The notes under the pieces are model-generated. The model was not told the DNA's origin and made no database searches. It saw nothing but the letters and a program-made list of their open reading frames with translations. Of a stretch of 64,000 nt of DNA, positions 16,611-24,893 are shown one piece after another. Every line of letters starts with the position of its first letter. The first letter of the stretch is position 1. The position numbers were made by a program, and so were the translations under genes. This DNA is from Bryopsis sp. KO-2023 (taxonomy: Eukaryota; Chlorophyta; Ulvophyceae; Bryopsidales; Bryopsidaceae): assembly GCA_030272585.1 (NCBI GenBank), contig BSYQ01000015.1, forward strand, positions 620,001-684,000. Reading direction: 5' to 3'.

Positions 16611-17710
16611 GTTGCACAGCCCAACTCAGCACCGACCAGATATGGTCGCTTCCAGAGGTTGAGCGAAAAAAAGCGGTTGTAAGGTGATTTCCGAGTTGAA
16701 TTTTCTTTGGCACAGGTGGTGTGGGGGTTAATTTGAATGGGTTGGTGGGATTCGCGATAAGGACTGGCGTTCTATTGTGAGGTGGAGAATTGGAGAGGGT
16801 GTGAACTGTGGGAAATTCGAAAGCGATCAACCTGACTTGAGAAAAAGCCGTCAAATTGAGTCGTGGCCAGTCGCTTCGATTTCTCGTAGGAAGCCTAGGT
16901 TGTTGAGGTTTTAATGCCCACTGATTTGACAGGAGCTGGACCAGAATTAGACGCAAAATTCTTGTGCATTTTTCCTTTCGGAGAAAAAACTCTGCAGACT
17001 TTTTTTTTCAGAGGTTTTTTATGGGGCGGCTGTATGTCTGTTTTGATTTCAGTTCGCTGAGAAACTGGAGCTAGCTGGAAACGGGGATTGCAGGCAAAAG
17101 AAAGGGATGTTCTTGAATACAATATGTGAACAGAAAGCTGAACCCTTTGGAATGCCATGCCCTTGTTGCACAGCATTGCTTGTTCTTTGCAATGAGACTC
17201 GAGTCTCTGTCATTGAAGAAAAGAATCTTTCTCTGCCTGTCTTCGAAGGCATGTTGCCTTCCAGAGTACAAACACCAGCAGGTCACAATTAATAGTGTTG
17301 AAAAATGTTGTGTGTTGATATATCAAATATTAAAAATATGTAGAATATCAAGTATAGAAATTTGATACCAAACCATAACATAATCATTATTCCCATCATT
17401 ATGACTGAATTGGTGGATATCGGGTAGCGCCACACTTCGTTGAGTTTTGGTCTCACCTGAATATTTGATTCTCTCAAAAAGAAAAGGGTTCACAAATATG
17501 AACTCTTTAATATTTAGTGTGCATTCATTTCTCCTTTTCAAAGGGTTTTTTGGGGAGATTAATTCACCCGTGCACATTCTTTTGTTTCATGCACAGGAAG
17601 CTGAGCAACCACTTTCCAATTGGGGTAAATTGCACCGGACGAGCATTGTTTTTACGACCTTTTCCTAGTTCCGCTAAGTCATATTTACAAGAGCGTTGAG
17701 CTGTGAGAAT
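16611..17710. other. Intergenic region upstream of the expansin-like gene
   Basis: No gene recognised. Short frames on both strands overlap and lack family features. This stretch should hold the promoter of the minus-strand expansin-like gene and ends at the left border of the DIRS/Ngaro-type element. Confidence 0.5.
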
Positions 17711-17867
17711 GGGACGTTACATTAAGTAGAGGAGATTAAATAACGAGTGAGTCTCGGCTCCAGGGTGGGAAAAGACTAGTTCCAAGATGTGATAGGCTGG
17801 CAGTGTGCTTTTGAGCAGCAGTTAGTATTTATTCACAGTTGGGAGCTGTAGTTTCATCTCGTTTTCT
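17711..17867 (+). repeat. A1 repeat of the DIRS/Ngaro-type element
   Basis: 157 bases from GGGACGTTAC to CGTTTTCT, found again at 21830-22459 once the nested 465-base MITE and its duplicated 8 bases are set aside. Confidence 0.95.
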
Positions 17868-17890
17868 TTTTTGAAAACGTATACACTTGC

Positions 17891-18634
17891 GTGTTTAAAC
17901 TCTCGAGACTTGAGTGTCTCGTTTCTACGACTCCCGTTATTGCGGTGTTCTGTCGTATGCAGCACAACGTTCCCCAGAATTGGAGGCCGGCTTTTTTGGA
18001 GACTGCGAGCTCTTACGGCTTTTCGTTGCCTGAGCACGTTACGTCGTTCGCTGTGGAGCCCAACGGTGTGCCTCACTTGCGCACTAATCCAGTGGATCGC
18101 CCTGCAGGAGCTGTGCAATTTGGGCATTGGTTCGATATTGGGTCTACAGCAAGGGGCGGTCGGTTGTTAACGCAATTGGGAGATAGGTCGTCGTTTGCCC
18201 ACGAGGCATCAAATTGGGCCCCTGTTGTGAGTTACTTATTCGATCTCACTGGGTTTATTGCGGCCTTTCTCGCCCATCACGAAGTGGCGGACGAGTTGCG
18301 TGGCGCCTTGGTAGGCTGGTTCGTGGCATTGTCGCGTACAACTGATTTGGCGGCCTCCCAATTTTTGGTACTAAAAACTCGAGGGGAATTCGACCAGAAC
18401 GGTCAACCTGCTGCAAGCGGTTTGCAAACCGCGATTCATTTGTGGGGTTCTACCCAGGAATTGTTGCCTCCTGTGGTTCGTACGTTTTATGAAGGGTTGC
18501 GCTCCAGGACCGAAAAAGAGAGTATCCGAAAGGCAGCCCAAGACGGACAGAAGCAGGGAGGACGAAGAAAGTCCCGTGGCGGAAAGAAGGGACGTGATCC
18601 AGCAAAACCACCCCCTGCAACCGACGAAGCCTAA
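17891..18634 (+). CDS. Gag-like first frame of the DIRS/Ngaro-type element
   Basis: About 247 aa with no match that I recognise. The C-terminal 40 residues are very basic and rich in Lys, Arg and Gly (GGRRKSRGGKKGRDP), as in nucleic-acid-binding Gag ends. The first frame of DIRS-order elements is usually gag-like and poorly conserved. A second Met at 17957 could be the start. Confidence 0.6.
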   Translation: MFKLSRLECLVSTTPVIAVFCRMQHNVPQNWRPAFLETASSYGFSLPEHVTSFAVEPNGVPHLRTNPVDRPAGAVQFGHWFDIGSTARGGRLLTQLGDRSSFAHEASNWAPVVSYLFDLTGFIAAFLAHHEVADELRGALVGWFVALSRTTDLAASQFLVLKTRGEFDQNGQPAASGLQTAIHLWGSTQELLPPVVRTFYEGLRSRTEKESIRKAAQDGQKQGGRRKSRGGKKGRDPAKPPPATDEA

Positions 18635-21600
18635 CGCAGTGTCGGATGGCGCAGTGGGCTTGGGCACAGCGCGAGGAAGCACGGCTGAGGACGAAATTTG
18701 GTATTCAGAAGCCTCCTCATTATGTTCGAGTCCGCCGTCAGCTGGCTCAGTGGAAGGAGATCGGAGCAGACAAAAATGTGCTAAAGTGGATAGCGCAGGG
18801 GGTGAGGATCGAATGGAAAAAGCCGTTGGAGCCCTTCGATTTGGGTTCCACGATATTGAAAACTCAGGAGGAGCGCGTAGCATGGAAGGAGCTATTACCG
18901 AAGTACCTAGAGACGGGCGGCTTGAGGCCAGCGCGTTGCGCCCGCTTCATTTCTCGCGGGTTTTTGATTCCGAAGTACCGCGAGGGGAGGATTACTTCGT
19001 TTCGTCTCGTGATCGATCTCCGCCATGTGAACGAACATACGGTCAAGCGGTCGATGAGATACGAACGACTCAAGGAAGCGGTTCCCTGGATCCGGGACAG
19101 TTCGGGTTTAATAGCCTTCGATATCGCCGAGGCGTTCCACCACGTTTCGATTCACAAGGAGGACCGTCGTCATTTTTGCATTCGAGTGGAGGACAAGGTT
19201 TACGAAGTTCCCTCCCTCCCGTTCGGATGGACATCCAGTCCAAGGATTTTCAGTCGGTTTACCAAGCCGATTGCTCGCTTTCTGAGAAATCCCCACAGTG
19301 TGCCTTGCCCTTCAACCCCAGCGTTAGCAAGGTATTGGCACCAGGGGAGTTCGGGAAGTTTTCTGTTTTATCTGGACGACATCCTAGGAGGACATCCGAA
19401 TGCTTCGAAGGAATGGGGTTCTCAGGTGAGGGACGTGGTGGAAGCTTTGGGGATCACCATACGCGAAGAGAAGAGTTGTTTTGCGCCGCAGCGTCAGGTG
19501 ATGCACCTCGGTCTGCAATTGGATTTGGACAGGGGGTTAATTTTGGTGCCTTCGCACGTCGAAACCCAGTTATTCGAGAAAGCGGGGAAACTTCTCAAGG
19601 TGATTCGCGACAACAAGGGTTCGGCGCCAGCGCGCTTAGTGGCGAGTTTTGTCGGGAAAGCTTGCTCAGTTCTAGCCGCGATTCCCACGGCGCGCTTTTT
19701 CCTAGGGGAACTTTTTCTCAGTTTGAAAGGAAAAAGGAAATGGACCAGTTGGGTGCGAATCCCTTTGAAAGCCATCAAACAAATTGTTTGGTGGCAGCAA
19801 ATCCCGCAACATTGGCACGGTCGGGCCATGGAGTGGGTTCCATCGATACGCATGGAGTCGGACGCGTCAGAGGTGGGCTGGGGGGTGGCTTTGGGGTCGC
19901 CCAGCACCCTTTCCAAGACACGCCCTTCCAAGGAACCAAACTATCTGATCGCCAAGGGATTGTGGACTCTCGAAGATCGTCCACGTTCCATCAACTTCAA
20001 GGAACTCAAGGCGATTTTGTTGGGACTACTGGCCTTCAAGGAAGTGGTAAAGGACCAACGCTTGGAGATTGTGACGGACTCCCAAGTTTGTTACCACATA
20101 CTTCGAGGCGTGTATACCAATATTCCGAGGCTGAGAGCGGTTCTGGGGCAGATTTTGGAGGTGTGCGAAGCCAAGCATATCGAGTGGAAGATGAAGTGGT
20201 GGGGAACTTTGGAGAATTACAGAGCCGATCAGTTATCAAGGATGGTCGAGGCAGGGGATATCGCTCTCAATCCGGCAATTTTTCGATGGCTGTGCCAGGA
20301 GTGCCGATTTCGTCCAACTGTGGACAGATTCGCGGCTCTGCACAATTCACAGTTACCCCGATTCAATGCAATTTCGGCCGACCCTCAAGCGGAGAATATC
20401 GACGCGCTGAGGCAAACCCATCAAGCTTGGAGTTTGGAGAAAAATTATTGCTTCCCTCCCTTCGGCCTGGTCCCTCAATTAGTCCAACTGATCAAGGAGG
20501 TGAAACCGATCGAGGCATTACTGGTGGTTCCGCGTTGGGAAGCGAAACATTGGTACAGGGATCTGTGCATGATGGCAACGAAGCGCCTTCTCCTCCCGAT
20601 GGATTCGTCGACGTTTCTGAAAGGGACGCAGCCGTTTATACCAAGGTGGCCGATGGAGTGTTTTTTGATAAAGCACTAATTGCTAAATTGCATGCAGAGT
20701 TGGGTAAGCCACCTGCAAATTTACAGTGGGACACCCTTTTGAGTGTTGGAAGCGCGGTTGCGACGCGTTTTAAAGAGTTCTCAGCAGAGGAGCGAATGGA
20801 GCTGCTCGAGCAGTTGTGGTCCAGCAATGCTATTATGGGTCGCAAGACAATTTGGTCCAAATTCGGAAAATTTTGGAAATTTGCAGTGGAGCGGCAACAG
20901 AGCCCCATTCCGGCTTCAAGGGAGTTAGTGTATCAGTACCTTCTCCACCTGCGCAGGACTTCAGAAATATCGGCAGTTTCAGCACCGCAATATCTGGCTG
21001 CGATTACTACCGCTCACGCGTGGTTTGGGGAGACACATTATGCTGCCAAGGATGAGTTGACGTCAAGGGTTATATCCAGTTGGGAACTGCAGAGCGCGAA
21101 GTCTGACCCACCAACGCCGGAGCATACACCGTTTCCTTCTCAAGCGGTGGGTTGGCTCCATGAATCAGTGGGGGGTTGGGATTTACGCGCAATGCGTGAC
21201 GGACTGGCGGCTGTTATCGCGTTCATATTTTTTTCGCGAGCAGATACCTACGCCAACATCCAGGTTGGCGATTTATCATGGTCGGTGGAGGAAGTCAGTG
21301 TGTCGTTTGTGGAGTATCGCGCCAAAGGCAAGAACCGTCAAGAGCTTCGACGCCAGCGAAAATTTTTTTCGAAAGGATTACCCCAGCTTCCCAGTCTCTT
21401 ACAGGAATTTAATCGATTATGCTGTGAGGCTTTTCAAGAGGTATCGATGCAAAGGAGCAATTATTTTTGGCAGTTGCCTTCCGAAAGTGTGCCTTCTCCG
21501 AGCAGTATGCGCTTAGCGCTGTTGCGTTTGTTACCAGCATTGCGTTCCGCTGGGGTTTTACAATCAGGGGATTTTTTGGGCACACATACGTTTCGTAGGG

Positions 21601-21755
21601 GAGGATGTACTGCCATGTTTTCGGCAAAGGTTCCTCTGGATCGCATTCGAGATTGGGGAGGTTGGGCTGTGGGTTCAAAATCAATTCATAAGTATTTGAA
21701 GCTTTCTCAAATTTTTCATCCATTGGATTCGGCTATTTTCTCTTGGCTGGTTTGA
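18489..21755 (+). CDS. Tyrosine-recombinase frame of the DIRS/Ngaro-type element (open across the RT)
   Basis: The frame is open for 1088 codons. Its recombinase lies in about the last 360 residues (from about 20650): FFSRAD with the first Arg, HTFRRGG giving His-x-x-Arg, and HKYLKLS with the likely nucleophile Tyr. Upstream the frame overlaps the RT in another register and its translation there is low-complexity and family-free, so the real product probably starts nearer the RT end. Overlap of RT and recombinase frames is known in the DIRS order; how the recombinase is expressed here is not shown by the sequence. Confidence 0.8.
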   Translation: MKGCAPGPKKRVSERQPKTDRSREDEESPVAERRDVIQQNHPLQPTKPNAVSDGAVGLGTARGSTAEDEIWYSEASSLCSSPPSAGSVEGDRSRQKCAKVDSAGGEDRMEKAVGALRFGFHDIENSGGARSMEGAITEVPRDGRLEASALRPLHFSRVFDSEVPRGEDYFVSSRDRSPPCERTYGQAVDEIRTTQGSGSLDPGQFGFNSLRYRRGVPPRFDSQGGPSSFLHSSGGQGLRSSLPPVRMDIQSKDFQSVYQADCSLSEKSPQCALPFNPSVSKVLAPGEFGKFSVLSGRHPRRTSECFEGMGFSGEGRGGSFGDHHTRREELFCAAASGDAPRSAIGFGQGVNFGAFARRNPVIRESGETSQGDSRQQGFGASALSGEFCRESLLSSSRDSHGALFPRGTFSQFERKKEMDQLGANPFESHQTNCLVAANPATLARSGHGVGSIDTHGVGRVRGGLGGGFGVAQHPFQDTPFQGTKLSDRQGIVDSRRSSTFHQLQGTQGDFVGTTGLQGSGKGPTLGDCDGLPSLLPHTSRRVYQYSEAESGSGADFGGVRSQAYRVEDEVVGNFGELQSRSVIKDGRGRGYRSQSGNFSMAVPGVPISSNCGQIRGSAQFTVTPIQCNFGRPSSGEYRRAEANPSSLEFGEKLLLPSLRPGPSISPTDQGGETDRGITGGSALGSETLVQGSVHDGNEAPSPPDGFVDVSERDAAVYTKVADGVFFDKALIAKLHAELGKPPANLQWDTLLSVGSAVATRFKEFSAEERMELLEQLWSSNAIMGRKTIWSKFGKFWKFAVERQQSPIPASRELVYQYLLHLRRTSEISAVSAPQYLAAITTAHAWFGETHYAAKDELTSRVISSWELQSAKSDPPTPEHTPFPSQAVGWLHESVGGWDLRAMRDGLAAVIAFIFFSRADTYANIQVGDLSWSVEEVSVSFVEYRAKGKNRQELRRQRKFFSKGLPQLPSLLQEFNRLCCEAFQEVSMQRSNYFWQLPSESVPSPSSMRLALLRLLPALRSAGVLQSGDFLGTHTFRRGGCTAMFSAKVPLDRIRDWGGWAVGSKSIHKYLKLSQIFHPLDSAIFSWLV
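18646..20679 (+). CDS. Reverse transcriptase-RNase H of the DIRS/Ngaro-type element
   Basis: About 677 aa. RT landmarks appear in order: RLVIDLRHVN, AFDIAEAFHHV, LPFGWTSSPRIF and the catalytic YLDDI. An RNase H-like part follows with RMESDASEVGWG, INFKELKAI, IVTDSQV and the RADQLSR end. No methyltransferase domain is visible, which separates it from classic DIRS1 and favours the Ngaro or PAT side. It overlaps the longer recombinase frame along nearly its whole length. Confidence 0.92.
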   Translation: MAQWAWAQREEARLRTKFGIQKPPHYVRVRRQLAQWKEIGADKNVLKWIAQGVRIEWKKPLEPFDLGSTILKTQEERVAWKELLPKYLETGGLRPARCARFISRGFLIPKYREGRITSFRLVIDLRHVNEHTVKRSMRYERLKEAVPWIRDSSGLIAFDIAEAFHHVSIHKEDRRHFCIRVEDKVYEVPSLPFGWTSSPRIFSRFTKPIARFLRNPHSVPCPSTPALARYWHQGSSGSFLFYLDDILGGHPNASKEWGSQVRDVVEALGITIREEKSCFAPQRQVMHLGLQLDLDRGLILVPSHVETQLFEKAGKLLKVIRDNKGSAPARLVASFVGKACSVLAAIPTARFFLGELFLSLKGKRKWTSWVRIPLKAIKQIVWWQQIPQHWHGRAMEWVPSIRMESDASEVGWGVALGSPSTLSKTRPSKEPNYLIAKGLWTLEDRPRSINFKELKAILLGLLAFKEVVKDQRLEIVTDSQVCYHILRGVYTNIPRLRAVLGQILEVCEAKHIEWKMKWWGTLENYRADQLSRMVEAGDIALNPAIFRWLCQECRFRPTVDRFAALHNSQLPRFNAISADPQAENIDALRQTHQAWSLEKNYCFPPFGLVPQLVQLIKEVKPIEALLVVPRWEAKHWYRDLCMMATKRLLLPMDSSTFLKGTQPFIPRWPMECFLIKH

Positions 21756-21770
21756 GTTAGTGGGACATAT

Positions 21771-21829
21771 GGCATTCAAATTATTATTGGGTTTCGGGAA
21801 AGGAAAAGAAGCAAACTAAGTGATTTAAT
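21771..21829 (+). repeat. B1 repeat of the DIRS/Ngaro-type element
   Basis: 59 bases beginning GGCATTCAAATTATTATTGG, repeated at 22580-22638 as B2; joined directly to A2. Confidence 0.95.
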
Positions 21830-21923
21830 GGGACGTTACATTAAGTAGAGGAGATTAAATAACGAGTGAGTCTCGGCTCCAGGGTGGGAAAAGACTAGTT
21901 CCAAGATGTGATAGGCTGGCAGT

Positions 21924-22388
21924 CAGAGATAGGACTTTACGGTTACGGTCACCGTAACCGGACCGTAACCACCGTAACCGGACCGTAACCGGAGTACAAT
22001 TTTCGTCAGAAAATCGTACTTTTACGGCCGTAACCGTAGCACCGTACCACTCCGTACCGCTCCGTACCGGACCGTAACGACCGTAACGGCCGTAACAACC
22101 GTAAACCGTAGAAAGTGACCCCCGCAGGGTCCCGCGATTCCAAAGGAACCCAGGGGGATTCGAACCCGCGACCCTACTGACTGCAACCTAACGCTTTAGC
22201 ACTGAACCACGCTACTTCACGGTGATTTAGGGCCTACCGTAGTTATACCGTACCTGTTCCGTACCGTAAAAACAACATATTACTCCGGTTACGGTACGGA
22301 GTTACGGCCGTAGTACGGTGACCGTAACCCGACCGTAACCGGACCGGACCGGAGTCGGACCAAAAATTTGGCCCAAGTCCTATCTCTG
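21924..22388 (+). mobile_element. hAT-like MITE (465 bp) with 14-bp TIRs and 8-bp target duplication
   Basis: Ends are exact inverted repeats CAGAGATAGGACTT ... AAGTCCTATCTCTG. The 8 bases CTGGCAGT flank it on both sides (21916-21923, 22389-22396) and occur once at the matching place in A1. Eight-base duplications and CAGxG termini are hAT traits. Inside are many copies of CCGTAACC, GGTTACGG and CCGTACCG words in both orientations, as hAT subterminal binding repeats often are, plus a tRNA-like sequence. No transposase frame, so it must depend on an element elsewhere. Confidence 0.92.
22146..22215 (-). repeat. tRNA-like sequence inside the MITE
   Basis: On the minus strand TAGCGTGGTTCAGTGCTAAA resembles a tRNA D-arm/A box and GGGTTCGAATCCCC is a consensus T-arm/B box with four of five stem pairs. 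The anticodon loop would read TTGCAGT (GCA, Cys-like), but its stem does not pair. It is probably a captured, decayed tRNA or Pol III promoter and not a working tRNA. Confidence 0.55.
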
Positions 22389-22579
22389 CTGGCAGTGTGC
22401 TTTTGAGCAGCAGTTAGTATTTATTCACAGTTGGGAGCTGTAGTTTCATCTCGTTTTCTCCCACCCACCCAGATTTGGATCCCCTTAGTTTGTTTCTCTT
22501 GTTAGGTATTAAGTATTATTAGAGTATTATTGGGACAGATTTTGTGATATGTTTGAACGAACGATCAAAGCAAGTGTAA

Positions 22580-22638
22580 GGCATTCAAATTATTATTGGG
22601 TTTCGGGAAAGGAAAAGAAGCAAACTAAGTGATTTAAT
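22580..22638 (+). repeat. B2 repeat, right end of the DIRS/Ngaro-type element
   Basis: 59-base copy of B1. The 120 bases between A2 and B2 have no partner that I found in the element's left side. Confidence 0.9.
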
Positions 22639-22764
22639 AGTTCCCTCAACTAATATAACTACACACGTTTCCCAACTGTCGGCTATGAGATCCGTCGCCT
22701 TTGACTTAAGAAGGCTGGGCGAATCAAAGCGCGCACCATTTCGTCTTTCCAAGTACTGCTAGGA

Positions 22765-24893
22765 ATGGAACAACCGGCCAAGAGCCCTACCAGTCGTGCT
22801 CTGGAAACATGTGGGCGAAAGCTTAACGGTGAGGAAGCAACTATACCTTCCAGACAGACGATTGGCGAGAAAGCTAGTGGGAAAGCGGATATGCTGAAGA
22901 CAAAGCCGTGGGAAAAGCTGCGATCCATATGGCGTTTCACAAAGACGGCGTTCAGAACAAGAATCGGCTGCTTTCGTCAGCGTACAGTCTTGGAAACGGA
23001 TCAGAGCGAAGAACCCCTGGGGGTGTGCTCGGCTAGGGTTGAATGAATTACCCCACAATCACAGTCTTTCTGCTCACTAAATATTTGTTGAGGATAGCAT
23101 GGCCTCAGTAGGTATTGGACGAGCTTCGCTAAAGAGTGTTATCGTGTAGATATGTTTTCTTCCTGTCCTTGTTTCCGCTGTGCAGACTGTTCAGCGTGCA
23201 GAGTGCGGGTATATACCAGATGAACGTTGCAAGAAAACTATTGTTTACTCTGAGCACTTTTTTGATTCAGACCCAGCAACGTATTCGCCAGCGCGCCGTG
23301 AAACACAAGTCCATTCGAGAAAGGTTCTGCGCGACACGCGTCACTCTCCCACCTTGGGGGAAAAACAAGCGTCAATGGAGCTTGTGGCCGACGGGCAGCC
23401 AATTCCAGATCATTCCTTGACGGCTGCTCGGAAAACGTCGGGGGGTGTTCCGATCTACGATCAGCGGCTTACGGAGAACCTGATGGAAAATGAACTCGAT
23501 GGGAACCAATACTTGATTGGCGAGATTCTTAACTGCAACACTGGAGGGCCCACCGGCAACTTTCTTTAAGAAAAAAAGAAAGTTGCTCTTCTTTAATGCT
23601 CTGGACATTAAAGAAGAGGTGATGGATCAAATTGACAACTTGAGCCCCGCAGCACAACTCACACTAAAGGCGGCAGCGGTGATGGGGGTGGATATCACGG
23701 CGAAAGCGATCATGGAAATTCACCCCTACAGAACTTTTCAGCCCAACGTGGAGATAGATATGGCGGAGCTGGAGTGTGTGGGGCTTATATATCGATGCGG
23801 GGCAAGCAAACACCCCCATCAACCCCAGCTCTGGGGTTTCAACAATCAAGTGGCCAGGGATGTAGTCTACGGCTTGATTCCCGATGGAGAGAGACGGCGC
23901 TTGCATGCCAACGTAGCCCAGCTCCTCCAGGAAAAAGACGAGACGACCAATTTTTCCATTGCTTTCCACTGGGAGAAATCCAGCAAAGGGGTTGAAGGTG
24001 CAGAGTGGAGACGAGCACTGAAAGCTATATTTGGGTGGCAGCGTGCAGCACATTTTGCTCGAGCCCATGGCTGTCGACACCAGGCGCTGGACTTCTTCAA
24101 GAGAGCTGTCGATCTGAATCGCCAGCTCATTGAATCCCTCCCTCAAAACGAGGTCGTGCAGAGCCAGGCCTCACAGCCGCCGGAATCGGCCAAGGCCGCG
24201 CTGATCAAACCAAATGGCAAATGTCCCTCGCAATATTCGGACCTGCCTTATGTAGCTGATATAAGATTTTGATTTTAGAGAGTCAAAATGTAACGATGGA
24301 TGGCTGAGGTCGATATGGAGCTGGCAGACTCAGAAACGAACTCTGCGAGGAGGATGGATATTCTCCATACAGCTTGGGACCATCTGGTGGTTCCTTTGGA
24401 TCTGCTTGGAGCACCATCCCCAGAAGAATTGGCTGCAATGAGAGAGAGGAGGGGGAGCTTGTGGGGAAAGTTGAAGGGGTGCTGGAGAATTCTCGAATCG
24501 AATCGGGAAGACGACCATAAGGAGAACAAGGCAAAGAATGTCGAGTTCATCCAGAGGGTCGTACTGGATGCCTGAACCCCCCCGGCGTCGGCGAAAAAGC
24601 ATGGCACTGTATTCGATGGGGGGGGCATCACAAAGGCAGAGAAGGTTGATGGAGGAGGAAATGCGGGAAGCGGCCAGGATCATGGATATGTATGCGGGCC
24701 TTGACATCCAAACCAACAACATTTTCGCCGTGTTGCACTGCGCTGATTTGCTGGATTTCTTTGTGAGGGTTTTGGGTGGGGGAGTCCTATTTCGCTCGAG
24801 TGGCAGAGAGGGTGGATACGGAGGGAAGGGAGGTGCTGGTGCCAAAGCTTGTGGCCAGCCATTTTTGACGAAGCCAAGTCTCCGGAGGTGATG
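22765..24893 (+). pseudogene. Probable pseudogene of an adenylyl-cyclase-associated ATPase-like (ADCY10/LuxR-type) gene
   Basis: The stretch 23600-24250 encodes DIKEEVMDQIDNLSPAAQLTLKAAAVMG, FNNQVARDVVYGLIPDGERRRLHANVAQLLQE and HWEKSS..A, close to the region after the NTPase domain in soluble adenylyl cyclases and related STAND ATPases (query for inspection of the type 'L.P..Q..LK.AAV.G'). An upstream piece (23184-23560, with possible exon 22765-23022) ends in EILNCNTGG, like the matching family segment. A further helical stretch lies at 24300-24890. The pieces sit in different frames: a stop lies in frame before 24303, and the frame seems to shift at the C run near 24578. No N-terminal cyclase domains are present. 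It could be an intact gene with splice sites I failed to read, but decay is more likely. Confidence 0.45.

Follow-up and report, generated by a model that had tools for sequence, protein, structure and literature searches.

A young tyrosine-recombinase retrotransposon, probably of the PAT group, in the Bryopsis nuclear genome, with a recombinase most likely translated through pol

Introduction

The 64,000-nucleotide stretch of Bryopsis sp. KO-2023 DNA analyzed here (the window; coordinates count from its first letter, and features lie on the + strand unless otherwise stated) contains an element at 17711–22638, termed WIN below, in which the initial annotation saw a DIRS/Ngaro-type retrotransposon. 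The locus raises the questions of which group of tyrosine-recombinase retrotransposons WIN belongs to, and of how its tyrosine recombinase (YR) is made from a frame running across the whole reverse transcriptase (RT) ORF. We conclude that WIN is very probably a young, TOC3-like member of the PAT group of retrotransposons in the Bryopsis nuclear genome, and that its recombinase is most probably translated through pol. Labels L034–L043 denote other elements of the same genome.

Results

Split direct repeats, genomic copies, and target sites

The direct repeats of WIN are split in the order A1-ORFs-B1-A2-B2, as had been proposed, and all four were located. A1 (17711–17867, 157 bp) is identical to A2 at 157/157 positions, and B1 (21771–21829, 59 bp, with AAT at its end as the B-A junction) to B2 (22580–22638, 59 bp, forming the right end with AAT last) at 59/59, exactly the identities claimed. 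The element had also been called whole, which holds in that all repeats and ORFs are present; however, A2 is interrupted (part one, 21830–21923; part two, 22397–22459) by a nested element that the claim omitted. This 465-bp hAT-like MITE (21924–22388, no strand assigned), which does not belong to the element proper, carries terminal inverted repeats that match perfectly over 14 bp, and its target duplication is the 8-bp CTGGCAGT. A tRNA-like segment spotted in it by eye was unsupported by ARAGORN or Rfam and was rejected. Inverted repeats of at least 30 bp were searched for in 16700–23700 of the window, giving 0 pairs.

Further copies and their repeat identity, the check suggested with the initial annotation, were sought in the genome of 91 Mb. 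There are 12 near-full copies of the family, in each of which the four repeats recur in order, and the structure of WIN is therefore far beyond chance. The other 11 copies differ from WIN by 6–38 substitutions in 4213, and A1/A2 are identical (157/157) in 9 of the 12 and B1/B2 (59/59) likewise in 9 of the 12, supporting the view of WIN as a young copy. The same repeat plan is found in the sister family L034, the plan having been established for these two families only.

At the right end, the triplet is AAT in 12/12 copies. The left crossover triplet on the target side (17708–17710, AAT in WIN) is AAT in 8/12, ATT in two, TTT in one, and ACT in one, ending in T in 12/12, and the base after it is G in 9/12. 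Target sites of this kind are similar to AAT|G, the circle junction. Integration occurred with no target duplication, and a short triplet is common to the predicted circle junction, as characterizes the DIRS order.

The host genome contains at least 67 RT and at least 109 YR matches of DIRS-order material; "patchy", as such elements had been described in the green lineage, is a poor description of this rich host. Its placement in the green lineage itself was sound, the chlorophyll a/b LHC proteins of the genome being nearest to Bryopsis chains.

Coding frames

ORF1 (17957–18634; 225 aa), Gag-like by position only, contains 0 Cys and hence no zinc finger. The RT-RNase H-methyltransferase ORF (18646–20679), with YLDD at 19369–19380, matches Pfam RVT_1 with an E of 1.9e-13, and its RT_RNaseH match (E 0.013) is under the Pfam cut-off. 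The YR frame, open from 18375 to 21755, would be read from its first in-frame ATG as an ORF at 18489–21755, spanning the entire RT ORF in the +2 (−1) frame. Thus, the RT and recombinase frames are open, as first described. The recombinase domain lies beyond the overlap (20680–21755); its Pfam Phage_integrase match reaches just E 0.16, under the cut-off, and its motifs align with those of relatives. We take the His of HTFRR (21585) and the Tyr at 21693 to be the catalytic residues. No match to the integrase-core family (DDE integrase) was found in the three ORFs of WIN, and the combination of RT-RNase H and a tyrosine recombinase without a DDE integrase supports the assignment to the DIRS order.

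A Dam-like methyltransferase domain visible through the family

That no methyltransferase domain is visible, as had been stated, is correct for the WIN protein alone, as its C-terminal domain searched by itself matched no Pfam or PHROG family, but not for the aligned family. Among 11 aligned members (WIN and others), Pfam Dam was matched in six (L037, 4.7e-4; L038, 5.3e-4; four others, 0.034–0.11), all under the Pfam cut-off (best, 20.3 bits versus 28.1), and the phrog_111 DNA methyltransferase in two (best E, 2.2e-4). Moreover, the family profile covering the C-terminal region of the RT ORF aligned with eight phage Dam proteins in hhalign at 95.1% (E 3.1e-8), against 0.1% or less for each of 20 column shuffles, and WIN with L034 alone reached no higher than 18.5%. 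These results suggest that a Dam-like methyltransferase domain, now decayed, forms the end of the RT ORF of WIN; the family alignment places it at 20245–20676, with a degenerate motif IV, FPPF, at 20452–20463.

In the genome, 48 Dam matches were found, the domain of WIN not among them, and 7 of the 48 are located upstream of YR matches among those listed, at a distance of up to about 0.3 kb. Searches of phages by tblastn gave no match at E 1 with the L037 domain and, with the WIN domain, three records from two Gordonia phages, annotated as methyltransferase, at E 4, which is weak alone. A PDB profile search of the methyltransferase alignment returned one weak, irrelevant match, and a single-sequence structure prediction of the domain (pLDDT 35) was discarded.

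Assignment to the PAT group

PAT elements in general have split direct repeats A1-B1-A2-B2, as does WIN, and a Dam-like domain after RNase H, which in WIN is degenerate and detected via the family profile, below the Pfam cut-off. This placement uses domains and repeats; the named groups were compared by description only, and the trees made comprise elements of this genome. Scanning viral_contigs and genome_contigs, once each, with the RT alignment revealed no relative.

As described, the algal TOC3 type of PAT shares with WIN the split direct repeats, a methyltransferase-like domain, a same-strand YR, and an ORF1 free of zinc fingers (PMC4157794). WIN differs from this type, again as described, in its decayed methyltransferase motif (FPPF) and in having pol wholly within the YR ORF, an arrangement not reported for TOC3 in the account consulted. 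The Pat1 type has a Gag zinc finger, which WIN lacks. Kangaroo of Volvox, a green algal PAT element, is likewise described as having split direct repeats and lacking a zinc finger (PMC4157794); in Kangaroo, however, the YR is inverted and the internal repeats lie between the methyltransferase and the YR, whereas the YR of WIN is forward and followed by the repeats.

DIRS1-like elements resemble WIN in their methyltransferase domain, in a long pol/YR overlap described for half of 28 elements, and in ends of the form NTT, complementary to the triplet at the circular junction (PMC3266345), but differ from WIN in their inverted terminal repeats and internal complementary regions. Since the overlap is also reported for these elements, it is not by itself diagnostic of PAT.

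The Ngaro type originally proposed agrees with WIN in its A1-[ORFs]-B1-A2-B2 plan with the internal repeats downstream of a forward YR, and in RT-RNase H and YR (PMC8547959, PMC4157794); the failure of the C-terminal domain of WIN alone to match any Pfam family would also fit an element without a methyltransferase. On the other hand, Ngaro and Viper are described as lacking the methyltransferase and Ngaro as usually lacking ORF overlaps, which are unusual in both (PMC3266345), whereas WIN has both features, its overlap being complete. As the methyltransferase domain is seen in the aligned family, and given also the long overlap and the Cys-free ORF1, the Ngaro assignment is not supported, and we regard it as improbable. 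Methyltransferase loss and split repeats are each described as having arisen more than once (PMC4157794).

Depletion of stops in the YR frame across pol

Eleven chosen elements from eight lineages, all of this genome, were used for the overlap tests. In 9 of the 11 (6/8 lineages), the YR frame is free of stops through about 700 RT codons, with 0–1 stops against 14–31 expected; for WIN, 0 were seen against 31.4 expected, the minimum in 1000 shuffles being 20. In the other two, L041 and L042, the lack of stops is confined to the open part of the YR ORF: upstream of the opening, which by its definition follows the last stop, they contain 12 stops against 17.3 expected and 19 against 15.5, respectively, and downstream 0 against 12.1 and 0 against 14.6.

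Codon or dinucleotide bias might have kept the frame open, the YR itself being translated independently from a start close to the recombinase domain. Junction bias indeed cuts +2 stops in the non-overlapping part of the YR as well (WIN, 11 versus 20.8; L037, 3 versus 8.7), and no clear conservation of the out-of-frame peptide is apparent from one lineage to another. Nevertheless, about 17 stops are still expected in WIN after scaling for this bias, a correction that leaves the weakest case in L037 (about 5 expected), and 0 are seen; the +1 frame has no stop deficit in 11/11 elements (WIN, 40 seen versus 34.4 expected); and the stops common upstream of the opening in L041 and L042 are absent downstream. 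Bias alone is thus an improbable explanation, and selection appears to keep the YR frame across pol free of stops even as the encoded protein drifts in sequence.

Sequence and composition of the out-of-frame peptide

Alternative-frame conservation was scored for 55 pairs, of which four close pairs were far above the null in the +2 frame and the +1 control alike. For the other 51 pairs, score z ranged in the +2 frame from −2.5 to 2.3 (mean 0.46, 37 positive; identity z up to 3.2), and the +1 control gave a mean of 0.39 with 28 positive, so that the slight positive lean is about equal in both. Clear sequence conservation of the overlap peptide between lineages was therefore not found in these distant pairs. 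Its composition, in contrast, shifts in the same direction in 6/6 lineages, and much more weakly in the non-overlap control. Synonymous change was slower in the overlap for the L039/L040/L043 pairs (0.28 v 0.44, 0.19 v 0.32, and 0.23 v 0.33), but L035/L036 were contrary (0.145 v 0.128), and this measure was set aside as evidence for the overlap.

Access to the recombinase start

The first YR-frame ATG lies at −157 from the RT ATG in both WIN and L034, and at +1067 in L041 and +1061 in L042. Instead of leaky scanning to an ATG of its own, access to the YR might depend on a −1 frameshift or on reinitiation downstream of ORF1, a variant that would leave the classification unaffected. The YR/RT frame offset, the same in 11/11 elements (8 lineages), would suit this route, as would L035 and L036, where the RT ATG directly follows a TGA stop and a YR-frame ATG stands 23 nt further on. 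A late shift within pol, however, would leave the whole open frame unneeded, and the ATG offsets kept within the related pairs (WIN/L034 and L041/L042) point to real starts. Frameshifting or reinitiation is therefore rather unlikely, and translation from the YR's own ATG is preferred.

Discussion

Long pol/YR overlaps in DIRS elements have already been reported, noted without functional explanation in the accounts consulted (PMC3266345, PMC6681497). New in the present analysis are the depletion of YR-frame stops across pol in 6/8 lineages and the compositional shift in the same direction.

Presumably, RNA from A1 onward is reverse transcribed, and, following the established model, the split repeats A1/B1-A2/B2 would let the copy circularize with a B-AAT-A junction. 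The encoded recombinase would then integrate this circle, with no target duplication, into the genome at a site resembling AAT|G; the footprint of such insertion is observed here. Judging from the open frame, translation of the recombinase most probably begins at the ATG next to the RT start and continues in the −1 frame across the full RT ORF; from the composition, this would give the protein a long disordered N-terminal arm. A fuller reading, which we advance tentatively and at slightly less than even chances, is that the YR is a protein of about 1,090 residues, of which the N-terminal two thirds, read in the −1 frame over the full length of pol, form a near-neutral and intrinsically disordered arm. 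Selection would preserve an open frame and a disordered composition while leaving the sequence free. The overlap would then be a dual-coding region of about 700 codons specifying a composition-selected linker, maintained across several lineages of ancient divergence.

The in situ decay of the methyltransferase domain seen in this family matters, since the presence or absence of this domain is used to group DIRS elements. Because the statistics indicate that the frame is kept open by selection, translation of the overlap is directly testable, and Bryopsis is an alga kept in culture (PMC12509668). The question of whether the overlap is translated can be put to no fewer than six separate lineages of its genome in which the overlap is full and to two in which it is partial.

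Structure of the element and its genomic copies

The split direct repeats of the DIRS-order element at 17711–22638 of the window were located as A1 (17711–17867), B1 (21771–21829), A2 in two parts (21830–21923 and 22397–22459), and B2 (22580–22638). Three reading frames lie between A1 and B1, and ORF1 contains no Cys residue, i.e., no zinc finger. The likeness of the A copies over 157 bases and of the B copies over 59, claimed in the initial annotation, was borne out (A1 = A2, 157/157; B1 = B2, 59/59), and the internal B1–A2 junction reads TTTAAT|GGGACG. A nested 465-bp element (21924–22388) splits A2; its 14-bp terminal inverted repeat is perfect, and its target duplication, CTGGCAGT, is 8 bp long. 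Both the duplication length and the CAGAG end are hAT-like. This MITE represents a recent burst of its own. A first look at the genome gave 554 candidate places, and all 40 that were scored proved near-identical to it over the full 465 bases (100% as printed); two further copies of the window family, c7 and c8, also hold near-identical MITEs. A tRNA-Cys-like stretch noticed in the MITE by eye was supported by neither ARAGORN nor Rfam.

The genome (91.09 Mb, 28 contigs) is that of a green-lineage host, as had been stated: one light-harvesting protein (locus L047) showed six differences, counted from the alignment, over 263 residues from PDB chain 6igz_7 (Lhca-h), and for a second, joined by hand from two frames, the best chain was Bry-Lhcb1. 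The 6igz structure is that of Bryopsis corticulans. DNA searches of this genome returned 26 matches for A and 27 for B, and the proposed search for further copies yielded 12 loci, the window's included, with A1, B1, A2, and B2 in order. The 11 others differ from the window element by 6–38 substitutions over 4213 bases. Repeat identity was likewise high, with A1/A2 at 157/157 in nine copies and 156/157 in two, and B1/B2 at 59/59 in nine and 56–58 in three; copy c2 scored 114/157 in an ungapped count, which we attribute to an alignment gap. Three copies are uninterrupted (4455, 4455, and 4468 bp), and nine, the window's among them, contain nested insertions, whose total length in one copy reaches about 27.7 kb. 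This load is high for so young a family, whose copies are otherwise near-identical, and is perhaps caused by insertion into silent chromatin. Moreover, an A–B2 layout alone (A 81%, B 95% alike) was found at C12:2640335-2640703; as the product expected from A1 × A2 recombination, it is likely the equivalent of a solo LTR. Two further places hold fragments of the B end only.

At the ends of the 12 copies, no target duplication was seen. The right end is AAT in all 12, and the flank beyond it begins with G in nine. On the left, the flanking triplet reads AAT eight times, ATT twice, TTT once, and ACT once, so that its last base is always T. Such a footprint is what recombination of a B-AAT-A circle junction with an AAT|G-like target would leave.

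At the start of the window lie an integrase-core fragment (1–627; Pfam rve_3, E 8e-4, below the cut-off) and, 3' of it, a lone tyrosine recombinase (YR) frame (826–1503) that groups with the recombinases of L035/L036, two DIRS-order elements of the same genome. Another DIRS-order element with RT and YR matches (G000:C15:603601-606269) lies upstream of the window, roughly 14 kb from its start.

Methyltransferase-like domain and group placement

The initial annotation saw no methyltransferase (MT) domain, which holds for the window protein searched alone and fails for the aligned family. Across its last 144 residues, the window RT ORF (18646–20679) can be aligned with the corresponding part of ten other RT ORFs from the genome (L034–L043); nine positions (D, R, A, W, P, P, P, W, W) are invariant. 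Pfam Dam was matched by six of these 11 members, every match falling below Pfam's cut-off: L037 and L038, in both of which the NPPW motif is retained, at E 4.7e-4 (the best) and 5.3e-4, and L035, L039, L040, and L043 at 0.034–0.11; the window element, L034, L036, L041, and L042 gave no Pfam Dam match. Two members matched phrog_111 (DNA methyltransferase; best E 2.2e-4). The 11-member profile compared by hhalign with eight phage Dam proteins gave a probability of 95.1% (E 3.1e-8, for that single comparison). Reruns gave 93.4% with all members, 91.2% without L037 and L038, and 18.5% with the window element and L034 alone; as controls, an RT stretch scored 0.0 and 20 column shuffles no more than 0.1. 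Because the phage motif NPPY is aligned to FPPF in the window element, its MT-like domain has probably lost enzymatic activity.

Across the genome, Dam had 48 matches, the window element not among them, and seven are located no more than about 0.3 kb 5' of YR matches listed for other elements. Thirty-one exceed the cut-off, 15 of them in frames of 1657–1702 codons. The one of these long frames that was read, L052:829-3999 (G000:C2:7307501-7311500), encodes a Ty3/gypsy-like polyprotein. Its Dam-type N6-adenine methyltransferase (motif NPPF) sits after the Gag zinc finger and before the protease; the domains other than Dam were assigned by eye.

In PMC4157794, split repeats with an MT define PAT, and a forward YR without a zinc finger defines the TOC3 type; by these definitions the window element fits PAT, TOC3 type, in its features. 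The same paper describes the group-defining features as gained and lost more than once, and PMC3266345 describes Ngaro and Viper as without MT and with ORF overlaps not usual. The sister family L034 (46–48% RT identity) shares the repeat plan and the AAT ending, its repeats being 179 and 56 bp long, and pairs with the window element in both the RT and the YR tree of own-genome elements.

Overlap of the RT and YR frames

The YR frame of the window element is open over 18375–21755 (1126 codons), spanning the whole RT ORF. The ten comparison elements were picked from search lists with YR-frame lengths in view, L041 and L042 being added as elements with shorter YR frames; among the 109 YR matches listed, 30, four of them from the window family, lie in frames of 1000 codons or more. 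With L035/L036 and L039/L040/L043 as close kin, the 11 elements represent eight lineages, and YR lies in the +2 frame relative to RT in every one of the 11. After 1000 rounds of synonymous-codon permutation within each RT frame, 14.0–31.4 stops were expected in the +2 frame of the nine full-overlap elements (six lineages), whereas none was seen in eight and one in L035, where the opening of the YR frame comes 11 nt past the RT start; for L038, whose RT frame extends further upstream, counting began at the YR-frame opening. The +1 frame showed no stop deficit in any of the 11 (window element, 40 vs 34.4 expected). In L041 and L042, where the YR ORF opens within RT, there were 12 and 19 stops upstream of the opening (17.3 and 15.5 expected) and none downstream (12.1 and 14.6 expected; lowest shuffles, 3 and 2). 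Codon-junction bias, which in the non-overlapping YR part cuts +2 stops to about a third to five sixths of the null, would account for part of such a deficit; scaled accordingly, the expectation is still about 17 for the window element but only about 5 for L037.

Distant lineages resemble each other in the +2 peptide hardly more than codon-shuffled open-frame controls do (window element vs L034, z −1.0 at 46% RT identity; mean z 0.46 over 51 distant pairs, vs 0.39 in the +1 control frame). Its composition shifts one way in all six full-overlap lineages (one element each, 40 shuffles each), the net positive charge being lower (z −1.9 to −6.9) and disorder-promoting residues commoner (z 1.9 to 5.7); a repeat run gave −2.4 to −4.9 and 1.8 to 5.5. 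In the non-overlapping YR control, which is shorter and whose shuffles were not kept stop-free, mean effects were about a quarter to a third as large, with a charge z of −3.2 in L038. The first YR-frame ATG precedes the RT ATG by 157 nt in the window element and L034, 85 nt in L039, L040, and L043, and 13 nt in L037, and follows it by 23 nt in L035 and L036, 1067 in L041, and 1061 in L042; for L038 the RT start is unclear. From the sequence, we read this as a single YR reading frame that starts beside RT and would be translated through it.

The overlap itself is known: PMC3266345 gives 28 DIRS1-like elements, half of them with a long pol/YR overlap, and PMC6681497 describes pol and YR as frequently extensively overlapped in DIRS elements. 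A test for selection on this overlap was not found in the literature covered, mostly from outside subscription papers, and the listed entries on Bryopsis genomes contained nothing on DIRS elements. The window element is thus a fresh addition to a known kind and brings new evidence on this old peculiarity.
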